DNA from: Candidatus Melainabacteria bacterium
Lineage (GTDB): Bacteria; Cyanobacteriota; Vampirovibrionia; Obscuribacterales; Obscuribacteraceae
Length of the DNA stretch: 64,000 bases
Direction of reading: 5' to 3'
Assembly (NCBI GenBank): GCA_003963305.1
Contig: RXJR01000004.1
Coordinates: forward strand, 122,562-186,561
Shown here: positions 10,591-20,246 of the stretch, piece by piece
Position numbering within the stretch: the stretch's first letter is position 1
How the letters are laid out: each line of letters begins with the position of its first letter
The notes under the pieces: model-generated
What the model saw: the letters and a program-made list of their open reading frames with translations, nothing else
What the model was told of the DNA's origin: nothing
The model's database searches: none
Translations under genes and position numbers: made by a program

Positions 10591-13500
10591 ATGGCAGACG
10601 AGCGGGCACTCGATGATAACGAAAAAGAGCCGGGCACCAATGATGGTGCTTCGAGTAAGCACAGCCATCACGATGATATGCTCGGACACATCCTGGAAGA
10701 CATCAGCCTTGATGAGTGGGATGTCGTCGATGAAGCGGAAGACTTAACCACCGGTTCGTCGGAAAATCATCTGCAGCCACAGCCAGCAAACACAGCTCAG
10801 ACCACAGCACAGCCGATTGCAGAACCAATTCCTAAACCAGAAGCGGAGGCTACTTCGCTCTTTTCGTTTGCAATGATGCAACAGTTTGAAGACGATTCTG
10901 AGGAACCGACTGCTGCAATTTTTAAGAAGGCAGAGATTGCTCTCCCTGAACCGACAACAGAATTAAATCTCCCCGAATCAAAAACAGAACAGGCTTTCTC
11001 TGATTCAAAAACAGAACTCGCCCTCCCCGAATCAAAAACGGAACAGGCACTTCCCGAACCAAAGACGGATCTGGCTCTCCCCGAACCAAAAGCTGTCCTA
11101 CCAGAACCGCCTAAGGCTGTTGGACCAAACCCATTTCAATTTCCACCTGTTAACCAAGCTCCGGGCACGAATTCAGACACGAATCCAGTCACTAATGCGC
11201 CGACGACTCCAAATCCATTCACCAATCTAGCTGCAAGTCCAATTACCGAACCAGCAATAAATCCCAATCCAGTCGCCGCTCCGAATCCAGTCGGCGCTCC
11301 GAATCCAGTTGGCATTTCGCCTACCAGTCCCAATGCAGGTACCAGCCCAGAAGCTACTCCGGTCGCCAGCCCAGGTGAAAGTACAATTCCAGTTGCCAGT
11401 CCCGCCCCAACTGCGACTCCAATTGCCAGTCCCGTCACAAGTCCAGCCCCAACTGCGACTCCAATTGCCAGTCCCGTCCCCAGTCCAACCCCAACTGCCG
11501 CTCCAACCAGTGCCAATCCAGTCACCAGCCAAACTGCTAACCCCTCAACCATCCCTGCGAAAGCGGCGCCGATTAATGCCGGAACCGGCGAGAAAGGAAA
11601 GCGCCGTCCAGCCGCAACACTCATATTCGATTCCTTCACTAAAAGCCAAGTCGGTCTCGACCTGCTAGATCTGTCAAGGTTACCTAAACCTCAAACCACA
11701 ACAGAAGTTGCGCATACCAATAGTAACGTTGCATCGAATGCAACACCTCCTTCGCCGCAAAATGGCGCAAGCACGCAAAATGCACAACCATCAAAACCGA
11801 GACCAACCGCAAGAACCCTTATCTTTAGAAGGGGTGATTCGATTGATGGAATGGACCCAACATTCGAACAACTGATGCCGGCTGCCCCACAACGTGCCAC
11901 CACAAGCGGTGACCAACCCGGCATTGGGCAAAATCTGACCACTGCAACTGGTTCCAACCCAGCCATGGGCCAAAACCCGACCACTGCAACTGGTTCCAAC
12001 CCAGCCATGGGCCAAAACCCGACCACCGCGACCGGTTCAAACCCAACCATTGGACCGAATCAAACTGTTGCGAGTGGCACCAATCCAACCTTCACATCGA
12101 ATACTTCCGTTGGTCCGAACCTTGCTGCAGCTATTGCCGCCGCCAATCCCCCAGGCATCCAACAGTCAGACGATAGTGCAGTAGCTCGCCACAATTCAAA
12201 TGTAATTCCAGCTCATCAACCTAACAACCCTGGCGGTCGGCAAATTGCCCGCACAATGATTCTTAAAAGTTTGGCACCGCCAGCGCAACATGATTACGTC
12301 GAACCAGTAGACGAGCCGTTACTGGAAGAACCTCTAACGAGCACCAGTCAGTCTCCGATCAATCTCGCAACAGGACAAGACGGCGAAGCGAGTGCTGTCG
12401 AAGTCAGACCGAAAATCGCAAAACGGTCCACTTCTCCAACGCTTGTATTCAAGGCATTTACGATGCCCAGCGTGGAACACGATGCCAAGCCAAAGCCACT
12501 GAAAATTATCAGGTACGATTCATCCAAGCTAAGAAATATGGAAAGCAATGCCAAACCGCTTTCCATAGCCGAAAGCATCGCAGCCGCAAAACAAGCAAGT
12601 ATTGTCGCCAAGGAAAACAAAGACGACCGACGCCCACTCTGGCTAAAGACTATAGCTGCACATCCTCTGGCGAAATCCCCGATGGTTCGGTCAGGTCTGT
12701 TGCTCGCGGTTCTTTCAATAGCTCTGTTGGTCTGTTCAAGCACTCTGATTAAGTCTCTGTACACAGACAGCAATAATCTTCATACCTCAACTGTTTCAGC
12801 GGTAGGAGATCAGCATCACTACAAATCAGTTGACGGGGCCAAAAGTCTTACTATCTCGGACAAAGATACAGTTCTCAGCATCAATGGAAAAGCAATTCAC
12901 GGAAAAATGAAAGGAGTCAGTGACGCAGATCTGCTTTCTCTGTGCATGACACCGCCGGCGAAGCGCGAGATATGGCTGCAACGAACGGACTCAGGATATG
13001 TAGACCAGGACGGCACAATACTCTATGGTGCCAGTGCACCTGAACTGCAAATCGCCAGGAAGCTCGACACCTATGCAGCACTCCTGACAGCAAAGTTTAA
13101 GGAATCGAAGATATATCCCAGTGATGCTGAAAGAATGGAACACATTTCGCCAAAGGATTTCCGCTATACGAATCCGTTCACAGGCAAAGCAGATCAGCCG
13201 GTAGTACAATATAAACGTTTCGCTGCGGCTGACGCCACTTGGACAGATCACACCAGACAAGCGCATGCCTGGGCAGATGAACCCCCGTGGAAGCCCGGCG
13301 CGATTCATTGCGTTTGCCTTGATTACTGTCGATTCTTTATCCGTGGCTTCGACCGCAATGGTCAGCCGCTACTCAGCGCACCGGGTGTCGCCGACTACGT
13401 CGAACTCAAAGACGGAAAGGATATGAATCCTCGTCGCAACGACAAAATCGTCGACGACAAAGATCGAACACCGGCCACTTTCCTGGTTTCACGAAGCAGT

Positions 13501-13668
13501 GGTCTGCCACTGACAGTAGGTGTGATGCGGCAGACAGCACCACTGCTCCCCATAGTGCTAGTCGTAATCGTCTTAGCATGTATAGGGGTGATTCTCTTCT
13601 TGCGCCGAATGAAACATAGCAGTGCAGACACAGTGACGAACTCCACAAAATTCGAAATGAAAGAATAG
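10591..13668 (+). CDS. Large Asn/Pro-rich membrane protein with repeated ATLIF-type motifs
   Basis: A 1025-residue protein with AGGAAGAG upstream of the ATG. Residues 1-690 are low-complexity and rich in Pro, Asn, Thr and Ser, with 12-residue LPEPKTEQA-type repeats near 120-165 and a 14-residue repeat at 445-500. Four short motifs stand out in it: AATLIFD (341-347), ARTLIFR (407-413), ARTMILK (553-559) and SPTLVFK (615-621), each preceded by basic residues. A transmembrane helix at about 701-723 leads to an extracytoplasmic domain of about 250 residues with a Cys-containing HCVCLDYCRFFIRGFD segment. A second helix (about 981-1005) is followed by a short basic tail. No family is recognised. 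The long tail looks like a flexible docking platform facing the cytoplasm (inferred from topology). Confidence 0.85.
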   Translation: MADERALDDNEKEPGTNDGASSKHSHHDDMLGHILEDISLDEWDVVDEAEDLTTGSSENHLQPQPANTAQTTAQPIAEPIPKPEAEATSLFSFAMMQQFEDDSEEPTAAIFKKAEIALPEPTTELNLPESKTEQAFSDSKTELALPESKTEQALPEPKTDLALPEPKAVLPEPPKAVGPNPFQFPPVNQAPGTNSDTNPVTNAPTTPNPFTNLAASPITEPAINPNPVAAPNPVGAPNPVGISPTSPNAGTSPEATPVASPGESTIPVASPAPTATPIASPVTSPAPTATPIASPVPSPTPTAAPTSANPVTSQTANPSTIPAKAAPINAGTGEKGKRRPAATLIFDSFTKSQVGLDLLDLSRLPKPQTTTEVAHTNSNVASNATPPSPQNGASTQNAQPSKPRPTARTLIFRRGDSIDGMDPTFEQLMPAAPQRATTSGDQPGIGQNLTTATGSNPAMGQNPTTATGSNPAMGQNPTTATGSNPTIGPNQTVASGTNPTFTSNTSVGPNLAAAIAAANPPGIQQSDDSAVARHNSNVIPAHQPNNPGGRQIARTMILKSLAPPAQHDYVEPVDEPLLEEPLTSTSQSPINLATGQDGEASAVEVRPKIAKRSTSPTLVFKAFTMPSVEHDAKPKPLKIIRYDSSKLRNMESNAKPLSIAESIAAAKQASIVAKENKDDRRPLWLKTIAAHPLAKSPMVRSGLLLAVLSIALLVCSSTLIKSLYTDSNNLHTSTVSAVGDQHHYKSVDGAKSLTISDKDTVLSINGKAIHGKMKGVSDADLLSLCMTPPAKREIWLQRTDSGYVDQDGTILYGASAPELQIARKLDTYAALLTAKFKESKIYPSDAERMEHISPKDFRYTNPFTGKADQPVVQYKRFAAADATWTDHTRQAHAWADEPPWKPGAIHCVCLDYCRFFIRGFDRNGQPLLSAPGVADYVELKDGKDMNPRRNDKIVDDKDRTPATFLVSRSSGLPLTVGVMRQTAPLLPIVLVVIVLACIGVILFLRRMKHSSADTVTNSTKFEMKE
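11923..12090. repeat. Four tandem 42-bp repeats (14 residues) in the Asn/Pro-rich gene
   Basis: Units begin at 11923, 11965, 12007 and 12049 and encode versions of MGQNPTTATGSNPA. The first three are nearly identical at the DNA level, while the fourth has drifted, which points to recent in-frame duplication. Copy number probably varies between strains. Confidence 0.9.
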
Positions 13669-13755: not shown

Positions 13756-15804
13756 CTAACCTCGGTTCAACACAACCAGCTGCCTGACAATGTTGTTGAA
13801 CTTTCCGTTCAGCGCAGCCTGGCTGGTTGCAGCATCAGTCCATTGAGTCGTATGCAATACGCCACCATGACCAGCAGCACCGACGATACCATTGGTGCTG
13901 ACATCGCTGAACTGATTTTGCATATAAGGAGTCATTGCACCGCCGGTATGGTCGAAACCAACCATAAAAATCGGAATGCCTTTCTTTCCAAGATTCTGCG
14001 CTACTACAAGCGCATCACCAATAGCCGGACCATTTGCAGCGGGATCTGTATATGGAGTTCCAGCCAGATCTCTTGTTGGCACCTTGTCTGTTACAACGAC
14101 AACGGCTTTCATTGCTCCGGTTCGCGCTCCTGGACCGGTCAACATGTCATAAGCCTTTTGCAGACCATCAGCAAGATTCGAACCGCCATTCGGTACAAAC
14201 ATGGGATTGCTGTCATCTTGAGGAGGAGACAACAATGCCGAAACCGCAGCTATGTTATCTCCACCTTGATCCAGCGGTATGGCTGGTATCAGGTATCTTC
14301 CAGTACCCGCGACCGTGTAGGCCCAGGAAACTCGCTGAGCAGCGTTTGTATCGGTAGGCGAAGTACCGGCACGATCGTTATATCCAACAAATCCGAAGTG
14401 ACAATCAGAAGCTTCAGCTACTTTGGTGACAAATCCAAGCAAAGATCTATCAATCGTCCCTTTTGGCTCGAGCTTAGAATAAGCAGCGACTCGATAAGCA
14501 CTTCTGTAGCCGGGGTTAGCAGCATCACCCATTTGAGTGGCCTGGACAGGAGCAATTGCATCTGGTGCAACTGCACCATTCTCTAAATTGCCTCGCGAAG
14601 CTTCGACCAGCCAACGATAATCGGGGAAGGAGAATGCGCCGATAGTCGTACCATTGAATGTGTTATTGCCATCAATGTTAACAACGACATCGGTAAACAT
14701 CGAAGCGTCTGCGCCCCACGGGTTGTACGCAGGAGGAGTTTGAGCTTCGGCTGGCGCACCAGCGATGTTGTTAAAGAAATAAGTGAGGAGGTCGGCGGAA
14801 CGCTTGTCTTGCTGATGACGCATCATAGCGATCTTGTCAACTTTCGCTCCAGGCAAAGACGCCACTGGGGCACCGGCAGTGCCACCACCCGCGTTTCCTT
14901 TACCAAATGTAGCACTAGTATTTCCCGGACCCACGGACATCCCCGCTAATCCTACTCCGCCATAGGCTACCGGTGCATCACCCGGCATTGCACCAGTGTT
15001 TGTGACCCCCCTGAGAGGTACGGTGGTGCCTACATTTCCTACTTCCGAAAATTCCTTGAGACACAAAGAATTTCTGGGATCACCTGCAGCGTCGAGATTT
15101 TGTGGCTCCAAACCATTCAACGGAGTTCCAATCAAAACAGGACAGAACACCCCAGAAATTGGTCCCTGTTCAGGCGCACCTCCAGGCGTTGGAATCGTGT
15201 ATGACGGCTGCGGCGGGTAAACGTTGGGGTCGTAGTAACGACGCACAACCGTAACTGGTGTCAGATCGTCCATCGAACTGGAATTATCATGAACCAGTAT
15301 CAAATCGAGCGCAGGGAGCGCCGACAATGCCTGTTCCGTCAAGTTGTAGCTGAGCACACCAATGGAACCAAAACCACCTGAGAAGAGAACATACTTGTAG
15401 GCGCCGTACAAGCGCATCACATTAGAAGGATTGGCGGTAGGCTGTTTGCTGATTGGATCATCAAATTCGACGAACATATCTACGCTCGCTGTCGTCGGAT
15501 TCATTTGCGAGAGACTGGGCACTTCTCGCACGTTAGAAGCAAGGGGCTGCCCCAGGATCGAATTCATTTTAAACATGTTCAAAGCAACCGCTTTCGCTTC
15601 TGCAGTTGCTGGTGCCCCACTGGCACTGGAAGAGGCGAGAGAGGCGGTACCTGCAAGGGCTGCGAATTCGAGACAGTTTTTCAACTGCTCGCGAGCCAGC
15701 AAAATACGCGTCATTTCATAAGCCGCGATGCCGAGTGAACCGACCACAAAGAGGGCGATTACTAAGTTTAGCGCTATCGCAACTTGTCCTGATGGCTTGC
15801 GCAT
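13756..15804 (-). CDS. TadG-like protein with von Willebrand factor A domain
   Basis: The ATG at 15804 is preferred over a GTG at 15813 because a GGTGAG sequence sits just before it. The 682-residue protein opens with KPSGQVAIALNLVIALFVVG, a TadG-type pseudopilin-like N-terminal helix in which the usual +5 Glu is Ala. A secreted region follows with LILVHDNSSSMDD, a complete MIDAS DxSxS metal site. KAVVVVTDKVPTRD and GIPIFMVGFDHTGG belong to the rest of the VWA fold. A long Gly/Pro-rich insertion separates the MIDAS from the other strands. TadG proteins are surface-associated parts of Tad/Flp pili. This is the last gene of the minus-strand island starting at 20246. Confidence 0.85.
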   Translation of the reverse strand: MRKPSGQVAIALNLVIALFVVGSLGIAAYEMTRILLAREQLKNCLEFAALAGTASLASSSASGAPATAEAKAVALNMFKMNSILGQPLASNVREVPSLSQMNPTTASVDMFVEFDDPISKQPTANPSNVMRLYGAYKYVLFSGGFGSIGVLSYNLTEQALSALPALDLILVHDNSSSMDDLTPVTVVRRYYDPNVYPPQPSYTIPTPGGAPEQGPISGVFCPVLIGTPLNGLEPQNLDAAGDPRNSLCLKEFSEVGNVGTTVPLRGVTNTGAMPGDAPVAYGGVGLAGMSVGPGNTSATFGKGNAGGGTAGAPVASLPGAKVDKIAMMRHQQDKRSADLLTYFFNNIAGAPAEAQTPPAYNPWGADASMFTDVVVNIDGNNTFNGTTIGAFSFPDYRWLVEASRGNLENGAVAPDAIAPVQATQMGDAANPGYRSAYRVAAYSKLEPKGTIDRSLLGFVTKVAEASDCHFGFVGYNDRAGTSPTDTNAAQRVSWAYTVAGTGRYLIPAIPLDQGGDNIAAVSALLSPPQDDSNPMFVPNGGSNLADGLQKAYDMLTGPGARTGAMKAVVVVTDKVPTRDLAGTPYTDPAANGPAIGDALVVAQNLGKKGIPIFMVGFDHTGGAMTPYMQNQFSDVSTNGIVGAAGHGGVLHTTQWTDAATSQAALNGKFNNIVRQLVVLNRG

Positions 15805-15920
15805 TATGCTCACCCCCAGCGCCCGAAAGGCGCCCCCCAGATTAACATCGTATCATCCATCCGGCCAGGCAGGAAGTCCCCTGCTGTGGACTGTAAGCCA
15901 CAAGACATTACGCACGGACA

Positions 15921-17408
15921 TTAAGTCGCCCTGAACCCCAAGCCCCCTTCCACAAGAGCTAAAACTTCATCAAGAGATCGGCAGTCCTCCGGCACATTTG
16001 CTATACCACCGCGAAACTCGATTCTGGATGGATCATAATCTTCCGAAACCCTGATAGTTGAGCAAATTTCGGCGATTGTCTCAGCCTGTCGATCAGCAGA
16101 TTTTCTGTTGCTCATCGGCAATAGCATGGCGTATGAAAATGCGCCGAAGTGACAGAGCAGATCATATTTGTGCTTAGCGCGAAACACCTTTTCGCGCAAT
16201 TCTTCTATAGCCTTGCTTCTGAAAGGAACCTGCAATTGCGGAGTGTCGAATTTCGTAGCAAAACCGAATGCCAAAAGCGAAAAAGGAACTTGCAGAGATT
16301 CATACTTGAACCATTCCTGCGCAAGAAAGTACAAGAGGGCAGGATGTGTGTACAATCCGCTATCAGCTCGACACAGACTTTGTTCGAAAGACTGAACAGT
16401 TCTCCAATCCATTCTATTTTCAACAATATTCTGCCGCATCTTTCCTGGCGCAGTGCTGATGCGCACCAATCCACAACTGAGTAGATTGAACATGACCGGC
16501 ACCCACTCGCTTTTAGCAAGTTCGATGTCGCGCAGAATCTCGCCCCAGGTTTTTGCACCATCAATAAGCTTATAAATCGCGATCACATCAGACAATTTGC
16601 ATTCGACACCATTCGCTAAAAGTGCCTGCTCGATGTCCGTATCGTTAACAGGAATCAAAAAGGACTCATGCGACAACTTGCTTTGAGTCAAATACTTGGA
16701 GTGATCTATATATTTCGCTCCTTCCATGAGAAGCCCGATCAAACCACGGTCGATAGTCTTATTTACATTGACGCGCTCATCGAAGAATGTGAACTCACCT
16801 TCTTCCCAGGCTTGCAATTGAATCATCGCTTCAGTGCCTTCTGCACCACGAAGAGCAGCATGAACAGGATTGCCTTCAACAAAATAGACCTGCGCCTTGT
16901 TTGACGGTGCGACAATTTCGAGAATGCCATTCATCTGGTTCATGTTAATAGATTGAAAGAGGTTGCCAATTTGAATGTTCTTCAGATTGCCCTGCAACGA
17001 ACCCTGACGAGCCTTGAACACGCTGCCGGTGTCGGCAGGCGCGGCAGCATTTTGTTGCTGAGTGGAGGTCGGCAGCGCCTTTTGAGCCGGTTTACTCATC
17101 ATGAAACCGAGATTTGAGTTACTGATGAGTGTGTAAATCTGATCTGCACTATGCGTGACGTGACTCCATTCCAGACCGGAATTAAAACCGTCATCGTGGT
17201 AGAGCATCCACAGCCAGCTGCCCTGCTCACGCTTAACAGTGAGATTAAAAGCCTGGGCATCATCGCCAAAGGGCAATTCCACCAACGCTCCAGCTGTCAT
17301 CATCGACTTCTTCATCATCTCCTCGAGCAATTTGACGGAAGGAAGCCCGGATTGCTTTTCCAGCTTTATGTTGCGTGGTTGCGATGAATGATGGAAGTTC
17401 TGCAGCAT
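15921..17408 (-). CDS. PATAN (DUF4388) protein with winged-helix and decayed GGDEF domain
   Basis: A 495-residue soluble protein. Residues 1-110 are unassigned. About 135-235 is a DUF4388/PATAN domain (LQGNLKNIQIGNLFQSI, GILEIVAPSNKAQVYFVEGN, WEEGEFTFFDE). About 255-317 resembles the winged helix that often follows it (LSDVIAIYKLIDGAKTWGEI). About 340-490 has the layout of a GGDEF domain: DSGLYTHPALLYFLAQEW for the usual DxLTGLxNRR start, HFGAFSYAMLLP (420-431) where RGGDEFAxLLP is expected, and IEFRGGIANVPED for the usual SxGIA strand. The catalytic GGDEF signature is lost, so diguanylate cyclase activity is not expected. It may bind nucleotide or act as a scaffold. It lies between the membrane-protein gene and tadG in the Tad-like island. 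Confidence 0.85.
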   Translation of the reverse strand: MLQNFHHSSQPRNIKLEKQSGLPSVKLLEEMMKKSMMTAGALVELPFGDDAQAFNLTVKREQGSWLWMLYHDDGFNSGLEWSHVTHSADQIYTLISNSNLGFMMSKPAQKALPTSTQQQNAAAPADTGSVFKARQGSLQGNLKNIQIGNLFQSINMNQMNGILEIVAPSNKAQVYFVEGNPVHAALRGAEGTEAMIQLQAWEEGEFTFFDERVNVNKTIDRGLIGLLMEGAKYIDHSKYLTQSKLSHESFLIPVNDTDIEQALLANGVECKLSDVIAIYKLIDGAKTWGEILRDIELAKSEWVPVMFNLLSCGLVRISTAPGKMRQNIVENRMDWRTVQSFEQSLCRADSGLYTHPALLYFLAQEWFKYESLQVPFSLLAFGFATKFDTPQLQVPFRSKAIEELREKVFRAKHKYDLLCHFGAFSYAMLLPMSNRKSADRQAETIAEICSTIRVSEDYDPSRIEFRGGIANVPEDCRSLDEVLALVEGGLGFRAT

Positions 17409-17436
17409 GACGACTCTTCTTAAACCCGTAAAACCT

Positions 17437-18642
17437 TTATTCTCTTTCTGTTATTCCCTGCAAAACCTGTCTAGCTCTCGAATCACGTTTCCAAACGGCG
17501 CCGTCAAGAACATAGTGATGTGTACTGATCAAAATAAATGCAGAAAGAAAGAAGAAATTCGGCAAAAGACCAGGAATGAGGCGCGCCCGGTCAAGCATTA
17601 CTGGAATAGTATGAAAGCTCATATATCCAATCGCCATCGCCAATAACGACAGCACAATCAGCAGGCCGAACGGCTGAAGCTTTCTTTTGATTGATGCTAA
17701 GGAAGAATCAAAATTATTGATCTCGACTTGATAGGCATAAAAAAGATTTTGTGCACCATGCGCGACAGGCACCACCAGAAACTGAAAACCATAGGGTTGC
17801 ACAAACGGTTGCAGCCAGAACCATATAGAAAGAATTGGAATCGCAAATTGAAACGGTGGAACCTTTCGATTTACCAGCAAAATCTTCCATAGAACCAGCA
17901 CGGTGGTCAGCGCGAAAAACGCATAAGATGTAAGGTTTATAGCCGCAGGCAACTGGAGGGCATGAAAAGCAAAAGTTCGACTGTTCAACACAGAAAGGAA
18001 TGCGAAGCCAGAAAGTAGATTCATAGCCCAGAGGGAATACAAATTGATTCGCAGCAGCTTCCTCTGTCCCGTAGTTAACGCATAGCCGTGCTTTTCGCCT
18101 TCCGACAGGGCAACGCCGTAAGCCTGCAGGCAATAATGATGGCCGGACATGACGATCTGTAGAACCAGAAGACACGAGAACAGCAGCTGCCCAACGCCAT
18201 TGTAGAGTGACCAATTCAAATTAATGCCAATACTTCGGCAACTATTTTCAAAGGCCACCAGAACGGGCAAATTCGAAATCGGATAACCCCAACTGATTGC
18301 GCAGAGAAACAAAAGCCCTGACAGAACCAGCGGATAGGTAATCAGGCGCGCACTATGCCGTTTGATGAAATCAAAACCCTGCTGGTAAGCGAATCGGTAG
18401 GACCAGACAAAATGTGGATAACTCAGCAGTACGACAAAAAACAAAGTACTGCCGCTCAGTTCTTGCAGCATAGAACGAACATCGTCGCGCATCAGAACCT
18501 GGGGTTGGCGCACAAGAAAAAACAGAGCCATAACTACTAAACTGCCACCACCCAGCATCAAAAATGCAAAAGCGTTACGCAACGGACCTGCTACTCGAGT
18601 GAACTCGAGAGAAAGAGGTGCATTGTGTATGGAGCTTGTCAT
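17437..18642 (-). CDS. Polytopic membrane protein with intramembrane histidine motifs
   Basis: The ATG at 18642 is chosen because it lies one base after the stop of the upstream TPR gene, which suggests translational coupling; an in-frame extension to 18726 would overlap that gene by 83 bases. The 401-residue protein has about ten hydrophobic helices. Several carry histidines near their ends: SYPHFVWSYRFAYQQ, VMSGHHYCLQAYG, VPVAHGAQNLFYAYQ and STHHYVLDGAVWK. This spacing suggests a metal or haem site in the membrane. I do not recognise a named family. Its place inside the Tad-like island suggests an envelope or redox role tied to it, but this is inference. Confidence 0.8.
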   Translation of the reverse strand: MTSSIHNAPLSLEFTRVAGPLRNAFAFLMLGGGSLVVMALFFLVRQPQVLMRDDVRSMLQELSGSTLFFVVLLSYPHFVWSYRFAYQQGFDFIKRHSARLITYPLVLSGLLFLCAISWGYPISNLPVLVAFENSCRSIGINLNWSLYNGVGQLLFSCLLVLQIVMSGHHYCLQAYGVALSEGEKHGYALTTGQRKLLRINLYSLWAMNLLSGFAFLSVLNSRTFAFHALQLPAAINLTSYAFFALTTVLVLWKILLVNRKVPPFQFAIPILSIWFWLQPFVQPYGFQFLVVPVAHGAQNLFYAYQVEINNFDSSLASIKRKLQPFGLLIVLSLLAMAIGYMSFHTIPVMLDRARLIPGLLPNFFFLSAFILISTHHYVLDGAVWKRDSRARQVLQGITERE

Positions 18643-18643
18643 T

Positions 18644-19219
18644 TCACTTGTTGGTTTCCATAGCCTGCTGCAGCTGCGATGCGTGTTCTCGCTTGTGCCG
18701 CGCAATATTTTCCGCACCTTTGGCAAGATTCTGCTTCATCTTCTCGATGTCTTTGATTTTGCTTTCGTAACGCTGGCGCTGGTATGCGTCACTGGCTAAT
18801 TTGCTGCCGTCGCTGCATAATTGAATTGCTTCATCGCATTTGCAAATTGCCAGCAAGGCATCGACTGCCTTGGTGCGGTAGAGATTATTTTGCGCATCTT
18901 GCAAAACAGCAGTCTTATACCACTCAGCAGCTTTGACCGGCTCACCGACCATCTGGCAAGCTTGTCCACGCATATAGAATTCCCAGGGACCCGGTGTGGC
19001 AACAGTGTTCAGTTGAGAGAGCGCTTCGCGCCCCTTGCCGGCTTGAAGCAAACTATAAATTGCACTGTGTCGCGGGTCGGCATCCGCTGGCGGGCTTTGA
19101 GCGCACACGTTCTGCATCGACGCCGTACAGGCGATTGTGAATGACATTAGGGCTGGAGCGATATGTTCGTATCTCAAGAGAATCACCTTAGTTAAATTGC
19201 GGCTCCGCTGCCCTCTCAA
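18644..19219 (-). CDS. Secreted TPR-like protein
   Basis: The frame opens at a TTG (19219); a GTG inside, at the VILLRYEH position, is an alternative start and would still give a signal peptide ending near NVCAQ. About 190 residues. TPR-like helical pairs are visible (IYSLLQAGKGREALSQLNT, FYMRGQACQMVGEPVKAAEW, RTKAVDALLAICKCDEAI), and a charged coiled coil closes the protein. It resembles the TadD-type TPR accessory proteins of Tad pili by position and size, but it is not a clear homologue. It follows the second TadE gene by 11 bases and is coupled to the membrane-protein gene. Confidence 0.7.
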   Translation of the reverse strand: MRGQRSRNLTKVILLRYEHIAPALMSFTIACTASMQNVCAQSPPADADPRHSAIYSLLQAGKGREALSQLNTVATPGPWEFYMRGQACQMVGEPVKAAEWYKTAVLQDAQNNLYRTKAVDALLAICKCDEAIQLCSDGSKLASDAYQRQRYESKIKDIEKMKQNLAKGAENIARHKREHASQLQQAMETNK

Positions 19220-19230
19220 CGCCCGACACG

Positions 19231-19692
19231 TTATGGCATAACGACCTTCGTCTTGATAATGGGGCTTGTATAAATCTGCGAAAACTTCATTTTGTTCGTC
19301 AAACTCGTACCAAAGAAAATCAAGGGAGCCGGTAGAGTCACATCAACACTCGTCGTCACTTGAACGAGAGGGCACTGCCCCGGAGGCGGTGCGCCGTTAA
19401 AATCGTTGTAGTTAAAATTTGTCAGTTGTATCTGGCTGATGAAGAATCCGTCCGTTTTGTGATTCTTGATAGATGCGAGAGCAAAATTTTGCGCCTTGGC
19501 GGCGTTTGGTTGCTGAGCGGCAGCACGAACTGCGTCACGACAAGCCTTATCATTTACAGCACAGGCAAACACCAGAATGCTGATGTTGATAGCGATTACC
19601 GCCAGAATCATGACCAGAAAAGAGCTGATTGCTACTTCTATGAAACTGAAGCCGGATGAATTCCTGTATTTGGATAGATGTAATTTTTTCAC
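19231..19692 (-). CDS. TadE-like pseudopilin
   Basis: The start is the GTG at 19692, which overlaps the stop of the preceding gene as GTGA and has AAGGA upstream; the longer frame to 19719 is less likely. The 153-residue protein begins with a basic stretch and then SSGFSFIEVAISSFLVMIL. The Glu lies five residues after the Gly, which matches the prepilin peptidase site of TadE/Flp proteins, and one hydrophobic helix follows. The remainder is a predicted periplasmic domain with four Cys overall. Second gene of the Tad-like island. Confidence 0.8.
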   Translation of the reverse strand: MKKLHLSKYRNSSGFSFIEVAISSFLVMILAVIAINISILVFACAVNDKACRDAVRAAAQQPNAAKAQNFALASIKNHKTDGFFISQIQLTNFNYNDFNGAPPPGQCPLVQVTTSVDVTLPAPLIFFGTSLTNKMKFSQIYTSPIIKTKVVMP

Positions 19693-20246
19693 TGATCTAA
19701 TCCTTGAGGTACTTCGCACGAATATTGAGCCCTGACAGTGACAGGGAACGGACTCGTCAAACCCGGAATGTTTCCAAACGAACTGACCGGCACAAGCGGT
19801 GCAATCAGACCGTTTAGCGCCACCTGAATTTCATAGATATTTTTGTCTGTGTCCGCAGCCGCAGCCAGTTTCTGCCTGTCCGGGTTGGTGATGCTTGTAC
19901 CTGCGCTCACATCTGTCTGAAGTATGTACACATGCACAGGGTTGACTATGGAGATTCCGTTGAACGAACTTGCAGCCATCCCTGCCACCTGATCAGCGGT
20001 GTTGACTGCAGAAGGTCCCTGCGAAGAGTTGTTCTCGAATGTCGGACACTTAGACGCCTGTTGTGCCGCTTGCCTGCAAGCATTCCAGAAAAATCCATAT
20101 CGAACTGTGATTATGGCAAGCATCAAGAGGGGAAAACAGATGCCGACGACGATGATCCATAACGCCAACGGCATCTCGGCCAGCGTCGTGCCGCGACGAC
20201 GGCGCGACAGGGAACATGGAGAGCTGAAGTGAAGGTGTGTGTGCAC
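19689..20246 (-). CDS. TadE-like pseudopilin, first gene of the Tad-like island
   Basis: GTG start at 20246 with GGAG about 8 bases upstream. It is 185 residues. RRRRGTTLAEMPLALWIIVV has the prepilin pattern: basic residues, Gly, then Glu at +5, then a long hydrophobic helix. The C-terminal domain contains VHVYILQTDVSAG and a YSCEV end. The gene overlaps the next one by four bases, so the two TadE-type proteins are probably made in fixed ratio. No TadA ATPase, TadB/C platform or RcpA secretin gene is found within the window. Confidence 0.8.
   Translation of the reverse strand: MHTHLHFSSPCSLSRRRRGTTLAEMPLALWIIVVGICFPLLMLAIITVRYGFFWNACRQAAQQASKCPTFENNSSQGPSAVNTADQVAGMAASSFNGISIVNPVHVYILQTDVSAGTSITNPDRQKLAAAADTDKNIYEIQVALNGLIAPLVPVSSFGNIPGLTSPFPVTVRAQYSCEVPQGLDQ

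Follow-up and report, generated by a model that had tools for sequence, protein, structure and literature searches.

A putative alternative Tad pilus tip set encoded with candidate helper genes in an Obscuribacterales genome

Results

A six-gene strip under purifying selection

Six open reading frames occupy positions 13756-20246 of the window (the whole 64,000-nucleotide stretch of DNA that was analysed), all on the minus strand and where an initial sequence-only reading had placed them. In order of transcription, they encode a TadE-like protein, a TadF-like protein, a TPR protein, a membrane protein, a DUF4388/PATAN protein and a TadG-type VWA protein. The source organism belongs to the Obscuribacterales, which are non-photosynthetic relatives of cyanobacteria. 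Its genome is designated G000, with contigs given as C-numbers (C1, C2, C4 and so on) and coordinates in k, and it was analysed within a set of 60 genomes, of which 39 represent the order (f1 and f2) and 21 represent other orders of its class.

When the strip was compared with its counterparts in two sister species, all six genes were found to be under strong purifying selection, with pS values of 0.74-0.92 (saturated) and pN values of 0.08-0.37. Because synonymous sites are saturated while nonsynonymous change is low in every one of the six, chance open reading frames are excluded. The TPR gene is the fastest evolving. Family matches within the strip are confined to DUF4388 (E = 5.8e-18), N_methyl (2e-4), VWA (1.4e-4, narrowly short of the curated cut-off) and a weak TPR_2 match (0.0065, also below the cut-off).

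The genes had been described as joined by GTGA overlaps and near-zero gaps, and this is accurate for the TadE-like and TadF-like genes, which share a GTGA, and for the TPR and membrane protein genes, which lie 1 nt apart, but not elsewhere. Gaps of about 53 nt precede the TPR gene (if its start is the TTG at 19177), 28 nt the PATAN gene and 107-116 nt the TadG-type gene, so that co-transcription of the latter with the rest is not certain. Scans for promoters and terminators returned no more matches than did shuffled sequences.

Two short prepilins and a large VWA protein

The TadE-like minor prepilin (19689..20246, minus strand) carries the predicted cleavage site RRRRG↓TTLAE, with the Glu at +5 encoded by the codon at 20177-20175; its GTG start at 20246 is uncertain. 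The protein has no Pfam match. A profile of its family matches the TadE of the tad operon on contig C4 of the same genome (probability 93%, E = 3e-7), and profile comparison also links it to the TadF-like family. The TadF-like minor prepilin (19231..19692, minus strand), whose GTG start overlaps the stop codon of the TadE-like gene, has the predicted cleavage site NSSG↓FSFIE with its +5 Glu codon at 19638-19636, and is the source of the N_methyl match. The two proteins had been recognized as TadE-type by a Gly followed by Glu at +5, and this holds throughout both families, where the Glu is invariant (12/12 aligned TadE-like and 13/13 aligned TadF-like members). The strip therefore contains the two short prepilins, each with a peptidase site and Glu at +5, that are expected of a Tad minor-pilin tip set of the TadE/F/G, Kil or Cpa kind, and it also contains the expected large TadG-type protein nearby, with a pilin-like N terminus and an additional C-terminal domain.

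This third protein is a TadG/CpaL-like minor pilin of 682-685 amino acids (13756..15804, minus strand; an alternative GTG start lies at 15813), in which an N-terminal pilin module is followed by a VWA domain that a long insert divides in two. The first MIDAS element reads D-N-S-S-S in sequence (D173, S175 and S177; 15274..15288, minus strand), the fourth ligand position is occupied by Ser542 in place of the canonical Thr (14179..14181, minus strand) and the fifth ligand, Asp573, is invariant (14086..14088, minus strand). Three of the six orthologs have Ala or Cys at the fourth position, and one carries SNDGA where DxSxS is expected, while the paralogs on C1, C9 and C27 retain canonical motifs. 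The earlier description of an intact MIDAS is thus only partly borne out: DxSxS and Asp573 are present, but the Thr is replaced and the motif is not conserved among orthologs in the way (DxSxS, Thr and Asp together) that would mark a VWA adhesin with a functional MIDAS. Because the MIDAS residues vary among orthologs, the case for metal-dependent adhesion is weakened; judging from these residues, metal-dependent binding by this TadG group is possible but would not be strictly constrained.

Eight of the nine members of the TadG family match VWA. The Tad N-domain of Pfam is recognized in two, both of them paralogs of the window protein. The best relative of the family by sequence among solved structures is the pneumococcal pilus adhesin RrgA (2ww8, E = 0.0017). 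A structure model of the window protein is weak (pLDDT 38) and was used for the VWA match alone, where it agrees with the sequence results by matching Mg-loaded VWA domains in the PDB with a probability of 1.00. At E ≤ 1e-5, the VWA-TadG family has matches in each of the 39 Obscuribacterales genomes sampled, but in only 3 of the 21 genomes that represent other orders. The TadG-like protein of the genome's own C4 operon gave no profile match to this family, and by this comparison the two are not demonstrably homologous along their length.

Three genes between the prepilins and the TadG-type gene

The TPR protein (18644..19177, minus strand) probably starts at the TTG at 19177, which follows AAGGTG. 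Inspection by eye reveals a secretion signal but no lipobox. TPR proteins are also encoded beside the minor-pilin loci C2:106k, C23:138k and C9:170k. The sequence-only reading had treated this gene as foreign to standard tad loci, a view that does not hold because the TadD/CpaO components of such loci are themselves TPR proteins (PMC10934763).

The membrane protein (17437..18642, minus strand) comprises 401 amino acids with 8-9 predicted helices, is predicted to reside in the inner membrane, and represents an undescribed family with no match by sequence in Pfam, NCBIfam or the PDB, nor by fold in the PDB. It had been called His-rich. The protein is indeed a membrane protein, but only 11 of its 401 residues are His; four of these are among the residues that are invariant in the 11-member family (H169, Q173, H295, Q298, H375, H376, D380, W384 and D387). 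GPCR-like fold matches were discarded, as all had E > 0.4 and the model has a pLDDT of 56, and a possible likeness to His membrane enzymes of the Brp/Blh type was dropped when no match was found. Three paralogs are present in the genome, none beside pilin genes. In genome G028, a distant homolog (L040:9199-10410, minus strand) is separated by only a few genes from others that are PilB- and PilT-like, and a gene for a small secreted protein lies directly upstream of it.

The fifth gene (15921..17408, minus strand) encodes a protein of 495 amino acids with a DUF4388 domain at residues 139-237, which we take to be the PATAN domain. No receiver domain was detected in it. The genome has 20 DUF4388 matches, most of which are not near minor-pilin loci. 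A genome-wide association between PATAN proteins and tips was set aside as resting on too few cases: apart from the strip, a DUF4388 match lies near a tip locus only at C22:223k and possibly at C9:164k.

Conservation of the strip

The gene order of the strip was compared among related genomes, as had been suggested, and the exact six-gene order is present in three species of the genus (the window genome, G001 and G002). Three other genera (represented by G006/G027, G009 and G015) carry a shorter block, TadG-TadE-TadF-(TPR)-membrane protein, in which the TadG gene comes first. The TPR gene is absent from the block in G015, so that the trio and the membrane protein gene stand there without TPR and PATAN genes. 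In G006/G027, the PATAN gene adjoins the block in the opposite orientation, and it was not found at the block in G009 or G015. TadG matches above 700 bits and orthologs of the membrane protein occur in exactly the same 7 of the 60 genomes and are adjacent in all seven; the PATAN gene adjoins them in five and the TPR gene in six.

The term island, in the sense of a mobile element, is not appropriate for this strip. Its GC content matches that of the surroundings and further flanking genes are syntenic in the sister species G001, which together rule out a mobile island; the strip is, on this sequence evidence, vertically inherited. One pattern scan located the same loci in the MAG records Cyanobacteria bacterium SZAS-4, SZAS LIN-3 and REEB67, and in one record each labelled Melainabacteria, Obscuribacterales and Proteobacteria.

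Two Tad motors elsewhere in the genome

None of the components expected of a complete tad (type IVc pilus) operon, namely TadA, TadB/TadC, RcpC/CpaB, a secretin and a Flp pilin, is encoded at 13.7-20.3 kb. The absence of TadA/B/C and RcpA from the locus had been correctly noted, as had the likelihood of a pilus motor elsewhere: the genome carries two Tad motors. The cluster at C4:575-583k encodes TadC, TadB, TadA, TadZ, a TadG-like protein in which VWA was not detected, CpaB/RcpC, TadE and a Flp-like pilin. The cluster at C2:66-75k encodes an A24 peptidase, TadC, TadB, TadA, a TadZ-like ATPase, CpaB/RcpC and a Flp-type pilin, with no TadE/F/G genes beside the motor genes. Its 65-aa pilin (MVNRFITDESGQGITEYGAILAFVAILV; L042:12419-12616, minus strand) was missed by the genome-level family search, and its presence completes C2 as a second Tad cluster, one that lacks TadE/F/G. 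Note that the Flp-type pilins of both C2 and C4 do not reach the curated cut-off for Flp, and their naming is based on motif and position.

The sequence-only reading was held open to challenge by two findings in combination, a separate tad operon and a six-gene order that is not conserved. The C4 operon, which includes a TadE gene and a TadG-like gene, supplies the former; however, the order is kept, and because the two were needed together the proposal survives.

The only secretin detected in the genome is encoded at L096:5578-8028 (plus strand; C4:405.6-408.0k), and no dedicated secretin was found at either Tad cluster, a point that counts against reading the strip as a Tad pilus tip set. 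A PilB/PilC-type machine (type IVa pilus or type II secretion-like) is encoded at C6:262-268k, and candidate type IVa-style minor pilins lie near C3:102-105k. An orphan TadC-like platform protein (L045:8494-9417, minus strand; C1:538k) is encoded beside a histidine kinase/response regulator pair, and a cytochrome c gene (cbb3 subunit III-like; L041:5476-6033, minus strand; C4) lies directly behind the tadC gene of the C4 operon.

A large repertoire of minor-pilin loci

Searches with TadE- and TadF-like profiles revealed about 20 minor-pilin loci in the genome, eight of which are trios: the window locus, C1:288k, C9:190k, C27:0-3k, C22:217k, C15:42k, C2:106k and C23:138k (for the last three, the large member is identified from its position, its size and an N-terminal helix). 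Pairs of TadE and TadG are located at C44:24k, C32:273k, C9:170k and C22:197k, and the remainder are partial sets. A histidine kinase gene lies within 3 kb of 10 of the 20 loci, where 2.5 were expected and a count of 10 was not attained in any of 5000 random placements. This enrichment suggests that tips are wired to signalling, although most of the kinases used to build the kinase profile had originally come to attention as neighbours of minor-pilin loci. The window strip has no such kinase neighbour.

Discussion

The strip is most likely an additional TadE-TadF-TadG set, one of about 20 minor-pilin loci in this genome, and not a defective tad locus. The suggestion of a specialised envelope fibre or adhesin module that borrows its motor is retained, given the two Tad motors located elsewhere and the likeness of the three pilin-type genes to the TadE/F/G trio, but its frame of a hybrid or incomplete tad locus is not. 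We consider it probable, on sequence and by analogy with characterized systems, that the strip encodes one alternative Tad (type IVc) pilus tip together with tip-specific helpers. Assignment of the trio as a tip set draws on the profile matches, the invariant +5 Glu residues, the VWA domain, the match to RrgA, the CpaL-like layout and a precedent in Myxococcus.

That precedent is the Kil Tad pilus, for which four TadE/F/G-like trios (KilL-KilM-KilN) serve as interchangeable tips; the genes for three of these trios lie outside the kil clusters (PMC12075869). The present genome likewise holds several paralogous trios away from a pilus cluster, but in place of four tips it has about 20 minor-pilin loci, including eight trios, and the variable domain of the window TadG is a VWA domain. 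In Caulobacter, CpaL (TadG) with its vWA domain is modelled as a trimer with CpaJ and CpaK on the end of the pilus and is proposed to act as a mechanosensor (PMC12607857). The window set resembles CpaJ-CpaK-CpaL in pairing two short minor prepilins with a large one that has a pilin module, and resembles CpaL in a VWA domain interrupted by a long insert with the MIDAS elements in the same order (DxSxS...T/S...D). Unlike the Cpa tip, it lies outside the tad operons as one of many such sets, adds TPR, membrane protein and PATAN genes, and has Ser, Ala or Cys as the fourth MIDAS ligand. The tip idea is therefore already known from Myxococcus and Caulobacter, and what is new is the size of the repertoire and the packaging with helpers.

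From these likenesses we infer a tip position for the trio, its pairing with a motor, and roles for the three helper genes, as follows. The TadE-like, TadF-like and TadG/VWA prepilins would be inserted in the inner membrane and trimmed by a prepilin peptidase encoded elsewhere, for which the A24 peptidase of the C2 cluster is a candidate. The trio would then prime the pilus and come to sit at its distal end, with the VWA domain exposed to a surface or partner cell, as a Tad motor from elsewhere pushes the tipped pilus out. The likeliest source of this motor would be C2, which has a Flp-type pilin and no tip genes beside it, followed by the C4 tad operon. The TPR protein may help to assemble the tip or the pore in a role that we propose to be TadD/CpaO-like. 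It resembles the TadD/CpaO TPR pilotin (PMC10934763) in being a putatively secreted, probable TPR protein encoded with tad-type genes, but differs in having no visible lipobox and no secretin gene nearby.

PATAN regulators of Synechocystis bind PilB1/PilC (PMC12288463, PMC7690835), and by analogy we propose that the PATAN protein is a motor-directed regulator that would bind the motor ATPase or platform protein. Like PixG, PixE and LsiR, it places a PATAN-type domain in a pilus-linked setting. However, no receiver domain was detected in it, and it is encoded with Tad-type minor pilins whereas the Synechocystis proteins belong to a phototaxis system. The membrane protein might link the state of the tip to the PATAN protein.

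Several features of the genome could be read otherwise. The TPR, membrane protein and PATAN genes might constitute an unrelated operon that landed between the TadF-like and TadG-type genes of a genuine tip set, as would befit the G015 block with neither TPR nor PATAN gene, the TadG-first order in three other genera and the location of the membrane protein paralogs away from pilin genes. We regard this as rather unlikely, since the membrane protein and this TadG ortholog group occur together and adjacent in 7/7 genomes, TPR proteins recur at other tip loci, and the PATAN gene lies beside the membrane protein gene in two genera in opposite orientations, which argues that it was retained through rearrangement.

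It is decidedly improbable that the trio instead forms a tip for the PilB/PilC-type machine encoded on C6. The TadE-like profile matches TadE of the C4 tad operon, the TadG family has Tad-type N termini and a layout that equals that of CpaL of a Tad system, and the candidate type IVa-style minor pilins are encoded separately on C3. In favour of this reading are the presence of the PilB/PilC-type machine itself, the sole secretin detected (C4:407k), the N_methyl score of the TadF-like protein and the fact that the known PATAN targets, PilB1/PilC, are components of type IVa pili. The number of loci, about 20 for only two Tad motors, and the placement of half of them within 3 kb of a histidine kinase would also suit VWA-TadG proteins that act as inner-membrane sensors of surfaces or stress and never polymerise. 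This, however, is highly improbable given that the TadE-like and TadF-like proteins keep a strict prepilin cleavage context and that pilus formation in Myxococcus and Caulobacter requires, or is shaped by, the corresponding proteins (PMC12075869, PMC12607857).

If the strip indeed encodes an alternative Tad pilus tip with helpers, each tip set might have its own control unit, with the PATAN and membrane proteins picking this tip for a shared motor and other sets answering to their neighbouring kinases. We consider so extensive a scheme quite unlikely, but if true it would mean that tips are selected by dedicated signalling and not by expression level alone. Tad pili with exchangeable tips have been described only recently (predatory Myxococcus, with four tips), and a lineage with about 20 minor-pilin loci would be a natural setting in which to test how a single motor selects from many tips. 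The packaging of a tip set with a PATAN protein would further suggest that PATAN control of motors extends beyond type IVa pili and phototaxis. In addition, the strip brings to light a conserved family of membrane proteins in which certain His, Gln and Asp residues are invariant.

A convergent gene adjoining the strip (10591..13668, plus strand) encodes a Pro-rich membrane protein of 1025 amino acids in which the motif R-x-x-A-x-T-[LM]-[IV]-[FL] recurs (seven overlapping matches at about four sites, versus 0.17 expected in shuffles). It is kept with the strip in the genus, the same large membrane-protein gene standing beside the six genes in G001 and G002, and its membership in the module is uncertain. 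Membrane proteins of this kind, rich in Pro and bearing several copies of short Thr motifs (ARTLIF, AKTMLD), adjoin several minor-pilin loci, with further examples at L046:5176-6960, L046:10486-12198 and L082:4778-5797. At L046, a protein with an FHA domain (E = 1.5e-17) is encoded next door, and because of this neighbour the Thr motifs could be FHA ligands.
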